Translations under genes and position numbers: made by a program
In this document: positions 20,019 to 56,857 of the stretch, piece by piece
How the letters are laid out: every line of letters starts with the position of its first letter
Position numbering within the stretch: the first letter of the stretch is position 1
Notes under the pieces: generated by a model
The model's input: the letters and a program-made list of their open reading frames with translations, nothing else
Databases searched by the model: none
Told to the model about the DNA's origin: nothing
DNA from: Pseudomonas taetrolens
GTDB lineage: Bacteria; Pseudomonadota; Gammaproteobacteria; Pseudomonadales; Pseudomonadaceae
Assembly (NCBI RefSeq): GCF_900475285.1
Contig: NZ_LS483370.1
Span: forward strand, 1,564,001 to 1,628,000
Direction of reading: 5' to 3'
DNA length: 64,000 nucleotides

Positions 20019-22733
20019 TCAGTACCACTGCTTGAAACGACGGATGTAGAGGGTTTTCATAAGCTGTGCGACGCAGCAATAGCTGAACAGGGTGGCAACC
20101 AGCCAAGGGAAGTACGACAGCGGCAGCGGCTCCAGGCCGACCATGGTGCCCAGCGGCGAGAACGGTACGTAGATCCCCAGCACAATCACAATGATGGTCA
20201 TCATGGTGACGGGCCATGCAGCCGTGCTCTGGAAGAACGGGATCTTGCGGGTACGCAGCATGTGGACCACCAGGGTTTGCGACAGCAGTCCTTCGATAAA
20301 CCAGCCGGACTGGAACAGGGTCTGCATTTCCACGCTGTTGGCCGAGAACACGTACCACATCAGGGCGAACGTTGTGATGTCGAAGATCGACGACGTTGGC
20401 CCGATCCAGATCATGAAGCGCCCGATATTCTTGGCGTCCCACTTGCGCGGTTTTTGCAGGTATTCCTTATCCATCTTGTCCCAGGGCAACGCCAGCTGGG
20501 AGATGTCGTACATCAGGTTTTGCAGCAGCAGGTGAATCGACAGCATCGGCAAAAAGGGGATAAAGGCGCTAGCCACCAGTACTGAGAACACGTTGCCGAA
20601 GTTGGAGCTGGCAGTCATGTTCAGGTATTTCATGATGTTACCGAAGGTCTCGCGACCCTTTAGCACACCTTCTTCCAGCACCATCAGGCTCTTTTCCAGG
20701 AGGATGATGTCAGCCGACTCTTTGGCGATATCCGTTCCGCTGTCCACCGAAATGCCTACGTCGGCATCGCGCAGGGCAGGGGCGTCGTTGATGCCATCGC
20801 CGAGGAACCCAACGGTGTGGCCATTGGCTTGCAACGCTTTAAGCACACGGGATTTCTGCAGCGGGGTGAGCTTGGCGAACACCGTGCGCTGTTCGACCTC
20901 CAGTTGGAGCGCGGTGTCGTCCATTGTCTCGATCTGCGGGCCCAGCAGCGGGGTACCAGGCTCCAAGCCCACCTGACGGCAAATCTTGCTGGTGACCACG
21001 GCGTTGTCACCGGTCAGTACCTTGACCGCTACGCCGATATCTTGAAGGGCGGCAATCGCCGGGCCAGCGGTTTCCTTTGGAGGATCAAGGAAGGTCAGAA
21101 AACCACGTATTACCAGATCGCGCTCATCCGCGGTGTTGTATTGCTTGTGCGAATGGGCTTTCGGGATTTCGCGGGTGGCGACCAGTAACACGCGGAAACC
21201 ATCCTCGTTGTACTCGGTGGCCAGGGCCAGCAATTGTTCGCGGCGAGCAGCGTCCAGCGAGACGACGGTATCGCCTTCCATCACATGGGTGGCAATGCCC
21301 AGCATCTCTTCCACGGCGCCCTTGCACACCATCAGGTGGTCGCCACGGGTGTCCTTGACGATGATCGACAGACGCCGACGCACGAAGTCAAAGGGCAGCT
21401 CATCCACCTTGCTGTAGTTGAGAGGTTCGTTGAACTGTGGGTCCTGCCGGGAAAACTGCACCACTGCCTGATCCATCAGGTTGCGTATGCCGCTCTGGTG
21501 ATGGCTGTTGAGCCAGGCTAGGGCCAGCACCGACTCGTCGCGTTTGCCGGTGGAATCGACATGGTGCTCAAGGATGATGTGGTCCTGGGTCAGCGTGCCG
21601 GTCTTGTCGGTGCACAGCACATCCATCGAGCCCAAGTTCTGAATCGCATTCAGGCGCTTGACCACGACTTTGCGCTTGGCCATGGCGTTAGCGCCCTTGG
21701 CCAGGTTAGCGCTGACAATCATGGGCAGCATTTCAGGGGTCAGGCCTACGGCCACCGCCAGGGCAAACAGGAAGGCATCGCCCCAATCGCCCTTTGAGAA
21801 CCCATTGAGGAAAAACACGATGGGCACCATGACCAGCATGAAGCGGATCAGCAGCCAGCTGACGCTGTTGACCCCGCGGTCGAACGCGGTTTGCGTGCGA
21901 GAGCCGACGATGGCCTTGGCCAGCGAGCCGAAGTAGGTGCGCGGACCGGTGGCCACCACCACGGCCCGGGCCGTGCCGCTGACCACGTTGGTGCCCATGA
22001 AGCAGATGTTGGGCAGGTCCAGCAGGTTGCTCTGGTCTGCGGCGGTACTGGAGGCGGACTTTTGTGCAACATCTCCCAGGGTGTCGTATTTCTCTACGGG
22101 CAAGGCTTCGCCAGTGAGCACGGCCTGGCTGATAAACAGGTCCCGGGATTCGATCAGGCGAACGTCTGCCGGAATCATGTCGCCAGCGGATAGCCAGACG
22201 ATATCGCCGGCGACTAGTTCGCGCATCGGCACTTCGTGCACCGAGGTTTTTCCGCTGGTCTTGTCTCGCCGAACAACGGTAGCGGTGGTGCGGACCATGG
22301 CCTTGAGTGCCTCGGCAGACTTCGCAGAGCGGTGTTCTTGCCAGAAGCGCAGCAAGCTGCTGAGGCCGACCATCAAGCCAATGATGATGACTTTGGTCAG
22401 GTCGCCTTCTTCGCCATCGCGCTCCGGCAGCCAATAGTCGGTGAAAAAGCTGATAACGCCCAGGGTCAGAAGTACATAAATGAATGGGTTATGCAGGGCC
22501 AGCATGAACTGAACGAAGGCGTGAGGCGGCTTGTCATGGGCCACCTCGTTGTAGCCGTCGTCCTTCAGGCGTTCTGCGGCGTCCTGTTCGGTCAGGCCGG
22601 TGGTTGTTGTGCGCACATTGGCCAGGGTGGCGCTGAGGCCGTTTTGTGCTTCCCGTGCGGCACGCATGGACAGTTTGCTGTTGTCGCTGGCGCTGTTCTT
22701 GTCTCGAACTTTAGTGTTTTTTACGGCGCTCAT
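20019..22733 (-). CDS. mgtA: Magnesium-translocating P-type ATPase
   Basis: Inner-membrane ATP-driven Mg2+ importer (P-IIIB type), 904 aa. It has the phosphorylation motif DKTGTLT with Asp376, the actuator motif LTGEALPVEK, the TM4 motif PEMLPMI, the hinge GDGINDAPALRDADVG and about 10 membrane helices. The ATG at 22733 (MSAVKNTK) has AGGAGT 7 bases upstream. The 500-base region before it carries a small-protein gene, two small leader ORFs and several hairpins. In enteric bacteria mgtA is controlled both by PhoPQ and by its leader RNA. Confidence 0.96.
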   Translation of the reverse strand: MSAVKNTKVRDKNSASDNSKLSMRAAREAQNGLSATLANVRTTTTGLTEQDAAERLKDDGYNEVAHDKPPHAFVQFMLALHNPFIYVLLTLGVISFFTDYWLPERDGEEGDLTKVIIIGLMVGLSSLLRFWQEHRSAKSAEALKAMVRTTATVVRRDKTSGKTSVHEVPMRELVAGDIVWLSAGDMIPADVRLIESRDLFISQAVLTGEALPVEKYDTLGDVAQKSASSTAADQSNLLDLPNICFMGTNVVSGTARAVVVATGPRTYFGSLAKAIVGSRTQTAFDRGVNSVSWLLIRFMLVMVPIVFFLNGFSKGDWGDAFLFALAVAVGLTPEMLPMIVSANLAKGANAMAKRKVVVKRLNAIQNLGSMDVLCTDKTGTLTQDHIILEHHVDSTGKRDESVLALAWLNSHHQSGIRNLMDQAVVQFSRQDPQFNEPLNYSKVDELPFDFVRRRLSIIVKDTRGDHLMVCKGAVEEMLGIATHVMEGDTVVSLDAARREQLLALATEYNEDGFRVLLVATREIPKAHSHKQYNTADERDLVIRGFLTFLDPPKETAGPAIAALQDIGVAVKVLTGDNAVVTSKICRQVGLEPGTPLLGPQIETMDDTALQLEVEQRTVFAKLTPLQKSRVLKALQANGHTVGFLGDGINDAPALRDADVGISVDSGTDIAKESADIILLEKSLMVLEEGVLKGRETFGNIMKYLNMTASSNFGNVFSVLVASAFIPFLPMLSIHLLLQNLMYDISQLALPWDKMDKEYLQKPRKWDAKNIGRFMIWIGPTSSIFDITTFALMWYVFSANSVEMQTLFQSGWFIEGLLSQTLVVHMLRTRKIPFFQSTAAWPVTMMTIIVIVLGIYVPFSPLGTMVGLEPLPLSYFPWLVATLFSYCCVAQLMKTLYIRRFKQWY

Positions 22734-22861
22734 GATGAGTACTCCTGTCGCCAACTCTTGACCCGACTAACAGTGGTTTACCTTTTTAAAGGCGCGCCAA
22801 TGCAGGCCGAGTCGCAAACTTCGCAATCGGTTTAATTGAAGTGTTAAGTGCGCTTCAAATG

Positions 22862-22898
22862 CCCGCTGCTACGAGGTAATTAATACTCGCGCAGCGGG
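22862..22898 (-). promoter_or_regulatory. Hairpin overlapping the mgtA leader ORF
   Basis: CCCGCTGC and GCAGCGGG form an 8-bp perfect stem with a 21-base loop. In the minus-strand RNA the 5' arm lies inside the Pro-Leu-Arg codons of the 12-codon leader ORF and the 3' arm lies after its stop. A ribosome on the ORF would open the stem. Attenuation or start-site control of mgtA is inferred. Confidence 0.5.
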
Positions 22899-22918
22899 TA
22901 ACTACTGGCGTCTTCCAT
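22880..22918 (-). CDS. Putative 12-aa leader peptide of mgtA
   Basis: The short ORF MEDASSYPLREY lies 147 bases upstream of mgtA. GGAG precedes its ATG at the ideal 6-base spacing. It starts with acidic residues and includes a proline, and a hairpin overlaps its 3' half. Enteric mgtA has a 17-aa acidic and proline-rich leader peptide (MgtL) that senses Mg2+ and proline. The similarity here is of design, not of sequence. Expression is unproven. Confidence 0.45.
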   Translation of the reverse strand: MEDASSYPLREY

Positions 22919-22962
22919 AAGGAGCTCCAGTTAACTAACAGGTGTTATTAATTGATTTAAAA

Positions 22963-23202
22963 TCAGCGCAAGAAGCGACTCTGCGGGTCCTGAGAGTCGG
23001 CCATGCTCCAGCGCTGTTCCAGTTGGCCTGTGGCCGGGCTGACGCGCCAATGCACCTGGCGGTGCGCTGGTTTATTGCCGGGAACGGCTGTGGAAAAAGG
23101 TGATTTTGCCGAGCGAGCATAGGTGGGCTCGCGGGACAGTTTTACGCGCATGCTGGAGGTAAAGGCGCGAACGCCGGGTAGAACATGGGTTTTAAAGGTC
23201 AT
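22963..23202 (-). CDS. Small conserved-looking protein upstream of mgtA, function unknown
   Basis: A 79-aa basic protein (begins MTFKTHVLPGVRAFTSSMRVKLSREP, then HWRVSPATGQLEQRWS). No membrane segment or signal peptide is visible. A GAGGTG ribosome site precedes the ATG at 23202 by 4-5 bases. The HWRV-P-TG-LE-RW pattern looks like a small protein family seen in gammaproteobacteria, but I cannot name a function. It lies between the putative promoter and mgtA, 229 bases from mgtA, so co-transcription and a role in Mg2+ stress are plausible. Its ribosome site is inside a hairpin. Confidence 0.7.
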   Translation of the reverse strand: MTFKTHVLPGVRAFTSSMRVKLSREPTYARSAKSPFSTAVPGNKPAHRQVHWRVSPATGQLEQRWSMADSQDPQSRFLR

Positions 23203-23207
23203 AACAC

Positions 23208-23237
23208 ACCTCGTGACCGGACTGATGCCGGTGAGGT
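23208..23237 (-). promoter_or_regulatory. Hairpin hiding the ribosome site of the 79-aa gene
   Basis: In the RNA, ACCTC-ACCGG-loop-CCGGT-CAC-GAGGT pairs 5+5 bp with a 3-base bulge. The 3' arm GAGGT is the Shine-Dalgarno of the gene starting at 23202. Confidence 0.55.
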
Positions 23238-23252
23238 CGTTACGTTGGAGCG

Positions 23253-23366
23253 TCAGGCTCTAGCGCAGTTGACCTCGCCGTGCAGGCGAGTCCCGTCAAT
23301 GTCTGGGTTAGGCGTCCGGTACTCCGTATACACGGTGACCGGACAGCGTCTAGATACTGTGTCCAT
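23253..23366 (-). CDS. Putative 37-aa upstream ORF in the mgtA leader
   Basis: An ATG at 23366 opens a 37-codon frame ending in TGA at 23253 (begins MDTVSRRCPVTVYTEY, then RTPNPDIDG). It sits 49 bases after the -10 of the predicted promoter. Its ribosome site (AAAGAAG) is weak. The PNPDID stretch is proline- and acid-rich, the composition reported to destabilise translating ribosomes at low Mg2+. Two hairpins lie within it. It could be a sensor ORF or a chance frame. Confidence 0.35.
   Translation of the reverse strand: MDTVSRRCPVTVYTEYRTPNPDIDGTRLHGEVNCARA
23269..23299 (-). promoter_or_regulatory. Leader hairpin with alternative pairing
   Basis: TTGAC-bulge-CTCGCC-loop-GGCGAG-GTCAA makes an 11-bp stem. 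Its 3' side includes GAGGTC (plus 23271-23276), which could instead pair with GACCTC (plus 23233-23238), the strand that masks the downstream ribosome site. Confidence 0.5.
23314..23344 (-). promoter_or_regulatory. First leader hairpin of the mgtA region
   Basis: GTCCGGT and ACCGGAC (7 bp), an internal loop, then CCGT and ACGG around a 4-base loop form a strong two-part hairpin within the 37-codon ORF. Confidence 0.5.
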
Positions 23367-23414
23367 TGGCTTCTTTTGTGAAGTTTATAGGCGGCCTGAA
23401 TGACCGGCCTGTGC

Positions 23415-23443
23415 AATCTACTCACTGGGCGGTGGTCCGTCAA
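23415..23443 (-). promoter_or_regulatory. Candidate promoter of the small gene-mgtA unit
   Basis: On the minus strand TTGACG (23438-23443) and TAGATT (23415-23420) are 17 bases apart (5/6 and 4/6 matches). No clear PhoP box (two GTTTA-type repeats 11 bases apart) was found upstream. Confidence 0.45.
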
Positions 23444-23577
23444 CTTTAAAGCCCGGAAAGTGTGTCCGGTACAGCATCGGTTCAGGTAGTTTGAAGGGTG
23501 TGGAAGTTTGAGTTAGATCTATAACTAATAAGACAAAATAGTGACAGCGGCTCAAGATTTATATATTAAGCCATCCT

Positions 23578-23664
23578 TGTGGGGGCGAGCCTGCTCGCGA
23601 AGGCAGCGCAGTGGTTTTTCCAAAAGATCGCCTCGCTTGCTTCGCGAGCGGGCTCGCTACCACG
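23578..23664. repeat. REP inverted pair of the GCGAGC type
   Basis: Arms GGGGGCGAGCCTGCTCGCGA (23581-23600) and its near-inverse GCTTCGCGAGCGGGCTCGCT region (23638-23658) face each other. This is the typical Pseudomonas REP with the GCGAGC/GCTCGC core. A single copy recurs at 59567-59592. Confidence 0.8.
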
Positions 23665-23685
23665 GGTACACAAATCGCAGACAAA

Positions 23686-23711
23686 CAAAAACGCCCGGCA
23701 GAGCCGGGCGT
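23686..23711 (-). terminator. Rho-independent terminator of infA
   Basis: ACGCCCGGC-AGA-GCCGGGCGT forms a 9-bp stem. On the minus strand TTTTTG follows, 16 bases past the infA stop. Confidence 0.85.
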
Positions 23712-23726
23712 TTTGTATTGACTTGC

Positions 23727-23945
23727 TTAGCGAGCGCGGTAAGTAATACGCCCTTTGCTCAAGTCATAGGGCGTCAGCTCGACGCGCACTTTGTCACCGG
23801 TAAGAATACGAATGTAGTTCTTGCGCATCTTGCCGGAAATATGCGCGGTTACGACGTGCCCATTTTCCAACTCCACGCGAAACATGGTGTTGGGCAGGGT
23901 GTCGACGACAGTGCCTTCCATTTCGAAGCTGTCTTCTTTCGACAT
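23727..23945 (-). CDS. infA: Translation initiation factor IF-1
   Basis: A 72-aa OB-fold protein that binds the 30S A site during initiation. The sequence [30 protein letters not shown] and the [17 protein letters not shown] segment are near-universal. The start is ATG 23945. The upstream in-frame extension to 24011 is rejected because the length is fixed in the family. It follows the transferases bpt and aat in the same direction, as in P. aeruginosa. Confidence 0.98.
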
Positions 23946-56528: not shown

Positions 56529-56857
56529 GGTGCATCGCGGCCGCATGAAGCAGTCAATCACGAGCCTGGTGGCGCGGGTCATTTGCCGCTCTCGGCCCCT
56601 CTGAGCGCGCTCAGGCCGATAACCGGCTCGCTTACTGTGATCCATGCGCATCTGAGGGATAGGTGCGTGGCGGCGTTTGTGATAACATTCGGCGGTTTCC
56701 AGGGTGGCCCACAATGGTTGCCCTTACTGCGCAAATCCGTAGCATAACTCGTTGATTTGTCGTAAGTCGTTGCATGGCACGTGGTCAGCAGCGGCGAGCT
56801 TCGTTCGTCCCGAATGGATGTGGCGAAGTTTCACCCGAAAAAGGAATCAGGCTTCTC
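56529..56857. other. Upstream region of gyrA
   Basis: 329 bases without a convincing gene. It includes the perfect 14-base palindrome CTGAGCGCGCTCAG (56601-56614), which could be an mtnA transcript end or an operator. An in-frame extension of gyrA to 56774 has no similarity to GyrA and is rejected. Confidence 0.6.

Follow-up and report, generated by a model that had tools for sequence, protein, structure and literature searches.

A candidate two-fold leader RNA with a short upstream reading frame ahead of one mgtA subtype in Pseudomonas taetrolens and its relatives

The stretch analyzed here is a 64,000-nucleotide piece of the Pseudomonas taetrolens genome (contig NZ_LS483370.1, positions 1,564,001 to 1,628,000), referred to as the window and numbered from its first letter. 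Its minus strand carries a structured leader RNA of about 210 nucleotides, the small open reading frame (ORF) named ORF2 and the magnesium transporter gene mgtA, in the order promoter (23443-23415), leader, ORF2, second leader and mgtA. The leader thus sits 5′ of a gene for a Mg2+-translocating P-type ATPase, as the enteric mgtA/mgtL leader does, and ORF2 and mgtA presumably form one cotranscribed unit with this region as its 5′ leader. Within the leader lie an upstream ORF (uORF1), a series of hairpins and three short segments, A, M and S, that could form competing pairings.

23415..23443, minus strand: sigma-70-type promoter TTGACG-N17-TAGATT (pattern search and alignment of relatives)
23393..23409, minus strand: P1, short hairpin at or near the 5′ end of the transcript (alignment of relatives)
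23344..23368, minus strand: nearly invariant stretch CAAUGGACACAGUAUCUAG(A/U)CGCUG, including the uORF1 start (alignment)
23253..23366, minus strand: uORF1, 37 codons, MDTVSRRC...CARA, ending within the P4c loop (ORF list and comparison)
23314..23344, minus strand: P2 hairpin, the sole helix with significant covariation
23274..23290, minus strand: P3 hairpin CUCGCC/GGCGAG, 3′ arm overlapping segment A (alignment)
23271..23276, minus strand: segment A, GAGGUC, alternative partner of M (alignment)
23241..23267, minus strand: P4b/P4c hairpin UGCG CUA GAGC CUGAC GCUC CAA CGUA (folding and alignment)
23233..23238, minus strand: segment M, GACCUC, predicted to pair with A (ON) or S (OFF) (alignment and constrained folding)
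23208..23237, minus strand: P5, ribosome-site hairpin, M:S plus CCGG/CCGG (alignment)
23207..23212, minus strand: segment S, GAGGUG, ribosome site of ORF2 (alignment)
22963..23202, minus strand: ORF2, 79 amino acids, apparently translated, loosely constrained
20019..22733, minus strand: mgtA, magnesium-translocating P-type ATPase (NCBIfam TIGR01524, 1399.6 bits)

Segment M (GACCTC in the DNA, 23238-23233) is complementary to A (GAGGTC, 23276-23271) and also pairs with S (GAGGTG). An initial annotation of the window had concluded from this that two folds exclude each other and that the last hairpin buries the ribosome site of the 79-amino-acid gene, and both points are supported by the relatives. 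A covariance model (R1) was built from 29 leader sequences, and 85 leaders were aligned to it and then re-aligned around the switch. Three sequences (L031, L037 and the decayed leader L104, which stands beside an mgtA remnant) were left out, L229 and L239-L246 were fetched later and stand outside the 85, and the 113 stretches of an exact-pattern scan served the uORF and promoter counts and were excluded from the alignment. At the four core positions, M:S was found paired in 85, 85, 85 and 85 of the 85 leaders and A:M in 79, 83, 85 and 84.

The three segments vary in step across lineages, with 29 distinct A/M/S triples among the aligned leaders. The window has GAGGUCAA/C-GACCUC/GAGGUGUG (core GAGGUC/GACCUC/GAGGUG), the L007 group has CGGGUGAG/CUCGCCUC/GAGGUGUG, the largest class (18 of the 85) has CCGGUAAG/C-UGCCUC/GAGGUGUG and the putida-like leaders (13 of the 85) have CGGGCAAG/CUUGCCGC/GAGGCAAG, with the core GGCAAG/CUUGCC/GGCAAG. 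Cognate duplexes were observed to be more stable than swapped ones both across these 29 triples (A:M and M:S, p = 2e-4 in either case) and for eleven hand-picked lineages including other genera (A:M, p = 0.001; M:S, p = 5e-5), these p values not being clean probabilities because related sequences are not independent. With the core pairs enforced, the ON and OFF folds of the window reach -68.2 and -67.5 kcal/mol, a gap of 0.7 kcal/mol; across the aligned set the two folds lie within 3 kcal/mol of each other in 32 of 85 leaders and ON is favoured in eight. A blind bistability test, in which the A/M/S arrangement with perfect 6-nucleotide helices was compared with 300 first-order Markov sequences, gave p = 0.003 for the window and was significant in L001, L007 and L093. 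P3 and P5 together exclude A:M because P3 and A overlap. Pairing counts, duplex swaps and modelled folds support a leader RNA with two mutually exclusive folds, one of which is predicted to hide the ORF2 ribosome site.

The 231-nucleotide leader has a minimum free energy of -81.5 kcal/mol, against a mean of -65.7 kcal/mol (standard deviation 4.7) for 200 shuffles (z -3.4). The three hairpins proposed in the initial annotation were found at their places (P2, 23344-23314; P3, 23290-23274; P5, 23237-23208), while the P4b/P4c hairpin, which lies between A and M, was absent from that description. The first six pairs of P2 are formed in 81 to 85 of the 85 leaders, and the P4c pairs and three of the four P4b pairs in 84 or 85. 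It had also been suggested that relatives be searched for conservation and for compensatory changes. The hairpins and an open uORF1 are indeed kept in close and distant relatives. Covariation, assessed against a tree-based permutation null of our own modelled on R-scape, is significant for two P2 pairs (E = 1e-4 and 0.011 when 44 structure pairs are considered; 0.04 and 4.3 when all pairs are counted). In a further alignment (A3), which misplaces the M region in one clade and whose controls leave relatedness in, both sides had changed in 133 cells, compared with 41.8 in shuffles, and the paired share of cells was 84.2%, compared with 26.7-50.2% with the partners slid. Some OFF folds contain a long-range pairing between the invariant UCUAG.CGC and GCGCUAGA, which is lost where these letters vary and is not proposed.

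All 152 unique leaders keep the uORF1 frame open over at least 25 codons, compared with 59 for the +1 frame and three for the +2 frame. Located by alignment columns in the 85 leaders, the uORF1 stop is most often in the P4c loop (51 leaders) or in A (25); three leaders have it between P4b and P4c and six in the P3 loop, which places it in A or P4 in 79 of the 85. Outside the genus the peptide starts with MDSIPSRC (L239, L242) or MDSTPSSR (L241) in genus g233 and with MDSIPSSR (L240) in a g230 genome, compared with MDTVSSRC, and the arginine codon AGA replaces CGC in L239 and L242. This replacement, together with the retained first residues, is a sign of selection on the peptide, and uORF1 is probably translated. 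The initial annotation had drawn attention to a 37-codon frame with a PNPDID stretch; the open frame, the first residues and the position of the stop are conserved, but PNPDID was found in the window's own clade only and was rejected as a conserved motif. No conserved early acidic-proline motif was found in uORF1.

R1 matches were found in 114 of 398 Pseudomonas genomes and in six of 148 genomes of the family, five of these within the genus and one at E = 0.04. With strict filters, which can miss diverged copies and did miss the one in G003, a scan of 274 genomes of the class returned the P. taetrolens genome alone (1/274). Scanning 84,980 species genomes with an exact pattern yielded 113 stretches, and the 80 among the matches listed are all from Pseudomonas; of the leaders at these loci, those nearest to that of the window are L137 (Pseudomonas sp. 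NKUCC02_KPG), L140 (P. psychrophila), L203 and L184 (P. fragi).

The leader goes with one mgtA subtype. An mgtA-like gene at E ≤ 1e-200 occurs in 81 of 149 genomes of the genus, and 37 of the 38 mgtA genes with at least 73% identity in these 149 genomes have the leader: 36 lie in genomes with an R1 match, the leader of G003 was recovered with the filters off, and G134 is without one. Eight sampled leaders of a 55-57% identical mgtA paralogue (L231-L238) gave no convincing R1 match (best E = 0.017, 11.9 bits), and neither did four leaders of 56-58% identical mgtA genes in g230 and g227 (L247-L250; best E 0.9). Judged by sequence, diverged leader copies are present in three other Pseudomonadaceae genera, namely in one g230 and three g233 genomes with 76-77% identical mgtA (R1 E of 1e-4 to 0.05, filters off) and in four g234 genomes with 71-72% identical mgtA, where they were recognized by eye. 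The best mgtA outside the family, among 229 genomes of the class, is 55% identical. The earlier suggestion of an element specific to pseudomonads therefore stands for Pseudomonadaceae with one mgtA subtype, but the element is not confined to the genus (g230, g233, g234) and the sampled leaders of the other subtype do not match R1 convincingly. That other subtype has its own conserved leader, in which a GTG-started short ORF (MGTCSSDSSRPV...) is seen by eye directly before a hairpin GCCGGUU...AACCGGC and for which solely low-scoring miRNA-type Rfam matches were obtained.

ORF2 is present in 61 of 298 genomes of the genus; the leader motif occurs in 60 of these 61 loci, and mgtA lies within reach in 59 (L054 stops at a contig edge, and L061 is without leader and without mgtA). 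Among 20 diverged loci mgtA is found downstream in 19. The twentieth is L104 (G278), where a decayed leader without P4 and P5 stands beside a 28-amino-acid mgtA remnant, as if the two had decayed together.

From the element itself, its link to one mgtA subtype, the presence of both competing helices in nearly all relatives and the open uORF1 with its stop position, we propose, with a probability of roughly 0.55, that the leader is a two-state switch, controlled by its uORF, that acts on the translation of ORF2 and through it on mgtA. uORF1 would be translated across P2 and P3 and end on A or in P4, and its translation probably decides which fold wins. With the uORF1 stop on A or immediately past it, a ribosome completing uORF1 would cover A and favour OFF; M would then pair with S and close the ORF2 ribosome site. 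Where uORF1 is not completed, presumably the low-Mg2+ state, A would pair with M, leaving S open and ORF2 translated, and this might let expression proceed towards mgtA, possibly, as we speculate, by preventing polarity. The direction of control is suggested by the position of the uORF1 stop and agrees with the enteric mgtL and corL leaders. Mg2+ would be the signal, judging from the target gene and by analogy with the enteric leaders.

Several observations weigh against this proposal. With the core pairs enforced, OFF has a mean advantage of 3.9 kcal/mol across the 85 leaders, and the A:M core comprises only four or five pairs in the largest clade. Of 15 single leaders, 12 gave no significant result in the blind bistability test, among them L240 (g230), L241 (g233) and each of the three leaders tried from g234, whose A, M and S were assigned by eye. 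No pair of P3, P4a or P5 covaries significantly in the tree-aware test (best E = 0.21, in P4a). The frame of uORF1 past P2 shifts between clades, its codons over P3 are not conserved and, by eye, it is without a strong ribosome site.

The non-significant blind tests and the lack of formal covariation in P4a and P5 would suit a leader without any switch, consisting of a fixed ribosome-site hairpin and a uORF in a structured RNA, with the A:M complementarity a by-product of ribosome-site-like segments. We consider such a static leader unlikely, since A, M and S change together across lineages and the putida-like A repeats six letters of S (GGCAAG), a repetition that a static leader would not need. 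The first 25 nucleotides of the uORF region are, within the genus, more conserved than coding requires, and P4b and P4c are nearly invariant. Both features could point to a direct riboswitch in which the invariant 5′ stretch and the P4 internal loops bind an ion or ligand and choose between A:M and M:S, uORF1 being incidental. Yet the other genera keep only AUGGACA...AG.CG-like letters while partly retaining the first residues of the peptide, and the frame is open in every unique leader, so that direct ligand sensing also appears improbable. Stall-type attenuation, in which a ribosome pausing in uORF1 over the P3 5′ arm would free A for M and turn ORF2 on as in amino-acid- or antibiotic-sensing leaders, would fit the incompatibility of P3 and P5 with A:M and the acidic and proline residues found there in several clades (NPDID, NPEND, EPE), but we give it little credence because the codons over P3 differ by clade and frame and the largest clade has no such residues over P3.

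The uORF-controlled switch may have a counterpart further downstream. A second conserved leader, absent from the initial annotation, was found directly 5′ of mgtA.

22734-22961, minus strand: second conserved leader, with uORF3, a hairpin and competing segments
22880..22918, minus strand: uORF3, MEDASSYPLREY (comparison of relatives)
22862..22898, minus strand: hairpin CCCGCUGC.../...GCAGCGGG over uORF3 (folding and comparison)
22811..22815, minus strand: proposed segment A2, GCGAC (assigned by eye)
22764..22767, minus strand: proposed segment M2, GUCG (assigned by eye)
22742..22750, minus strand: proposed segment S2, CGAC, plus the AGGAG ribosome site of mgtA that follows it (assigned by eye)

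This second leader folds at -71.0 kcal/mol (z -3.2). Other loci have MDEASRRFAA, MESASRKFAA, MDEPPSR or MEEPPSSDLSEPEP in place of the window's uORF3, and acidic-proline starts (MDEPP, MEEPP) occur in other genera. By eye, the window segments CGAC/GUCG/CGAC offer a near-identical pair that could compete for one strand. In 15 of the 77 loci examined the set next to the ribosome site of mgtA is GCGGC/GCCGC/GCGGC, and others have related sets, in a search that takes the best match and is thus biased towards finding one. Tentatively, Pseudomonadaceae may govern this mgtA by two tandem and possibly duplicated modules that form a two-gate sensor with the translated ORF2 between them. Each module would consist of a short ORF whose peptide begins M-(D/E)-x-x and soon reaches S-(S/R), then a hairpin, and lastly a pair of near-identical segments in competition for one masking segment at a ribosome site. 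If true, such a sensor would gauge uORF translation twice before the pump is made.

The ratio of nonsynonymous to synonymous substitution rates of ORF2 is 0.16-0.78 (median 0.27, 17 pairs), compared with 0.04-0.12 for mgtA, and it points to a translated ORF under loose constraint. Neither ORF2 nor uORF1 matched a Pfam or NCBIfam family at E ≤ 0.1. A total of 56 relatives of ORF2 were found among 5.8 billion proteins searched; their source names are hypothetical or uncharacterized protein, and where the record names an organism it is always Pseudomonas. In the putida-like loci ORF2 is 36-89 amino acids long in 19 of 20, with little conserved beyond a C-terminal EPPSR-like motif that is present in many, and in L060 the leader is intact and ORF2 is broken.

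The promoter given in the initial annotation, TTGACG-N17-TAGATT, is present on the minus strand. Two promoter-like sites were seen in 22700-23800 on both strands against 0.6 expected from 50 shuffles, TTGAC is conserved in at least 97% of 60 aligned leaders, and the loose pattern TTGAC-N16-19-(-10) is matched by 139 of 150 unique upstream regions. Inspection of the aligned upstream regions by eye revealed no PhoP box conserved across clades. In most relatives P1 is followed by a U-run, resembling an intrinsic terminator right after the promoter (a T-run of at least five at this place in 110 of 150 unique upstream regions); the window clade is without the U-run. Between the upstream gene and the promoter lies a long GC-rich inverted repeat (23574-23667), probably a dispersed repeat, which gave rise to a spurious mir-627 match far under the family cut-off.

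The initial annotation had recognized no likeness to a known leader, and the searches agree. With Rfam 15 (4227 families), at gathering and relaxed thresholds, no leader match was found in the window or in the loci of five relatives, nor any match to an mgtA, Mg sensor or M-box model; the relaxed matches near the leader all lie below the family cut-offs. Elsewhere in the window, gyrA RNA (RF01740) was found at 56760-56846 on the plus strand with 74.2 bits. Among the matches listed, no open-licence PMC paper describes the element in its title or abstract.

To our knowledge, leader RNAs of Mg2+ transporters are known mainly from enterics. The M-box (ykoK) is a Mg2+ riboswitch in the leader RNA of Mg2+ transporters, and it differs in that its family model is unmatched here. 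In ermC-type attenuators, segments pair as 1:2 and 3:4 or as 2:3 and thereby hide or free a ribosome site under the control of a leader ORF, the trigger being drug-stalled ribosomes; P3, A:M and M:S have the same topology in their predicted pairing, but no conserved stall codons were seen in uORF1. The Salmonella mgtCBR leader, also Mg2+-related, has alternative stems together with at least two short ORFs (mgtM, mgtP).

There is a likeness in design to the mgtA/mgtL leader of E. coli and Salmonella, which in the excerpts of PMC11552253 and PMC11282234 is a leader of a Mg2+ P-type ATPase with a short ORF and two exclusive folds. The leader described here would work like those of mgtL and corL, to which it has no detectable relation; in both, according to the same excerpts, efficient uORF translation represses the transporter (PMC11552253; PMC11282234). 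Whereas the output of the enteric mgtA leader is a Rho site, the one proposed here is the ribosome site of an intervening ORF, which becomes hidden; there appear to be two uORF-switch units in series (the second with segments assigned by eye), and uORF1 contains nothing equivalent to the EPDP motif of MgtL. The corA leader with corL resembles the design proposed here in that, as outlined in part of PMC11552253, more uORF translation goes with less transporter expression and the RNA has two alternative folds; it differs in target gene and organization, sequence likeness being checked through Rfam only. In P. aeruginosa the expression of PA4826-mgtA-PA4824 responds to Mg2+, as stated in the portion of PMC11218974 that we cite, and its layout is similar to that of the window locus, homology not being claimed. 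If true, a Pseudomonas mgtA leader of similar design would be an independent instance of control by a uORF plus a bistable RNA, and its natural, matched A/M/S variants would be ready-made compensatory mutants. For the enteric leaders it is still debated, as the excerpt of PMC11552253 puts it, whether sensing is done by the RNA or by translation of the uORF, and with two successive modules this question could be addressed one gate at a time.
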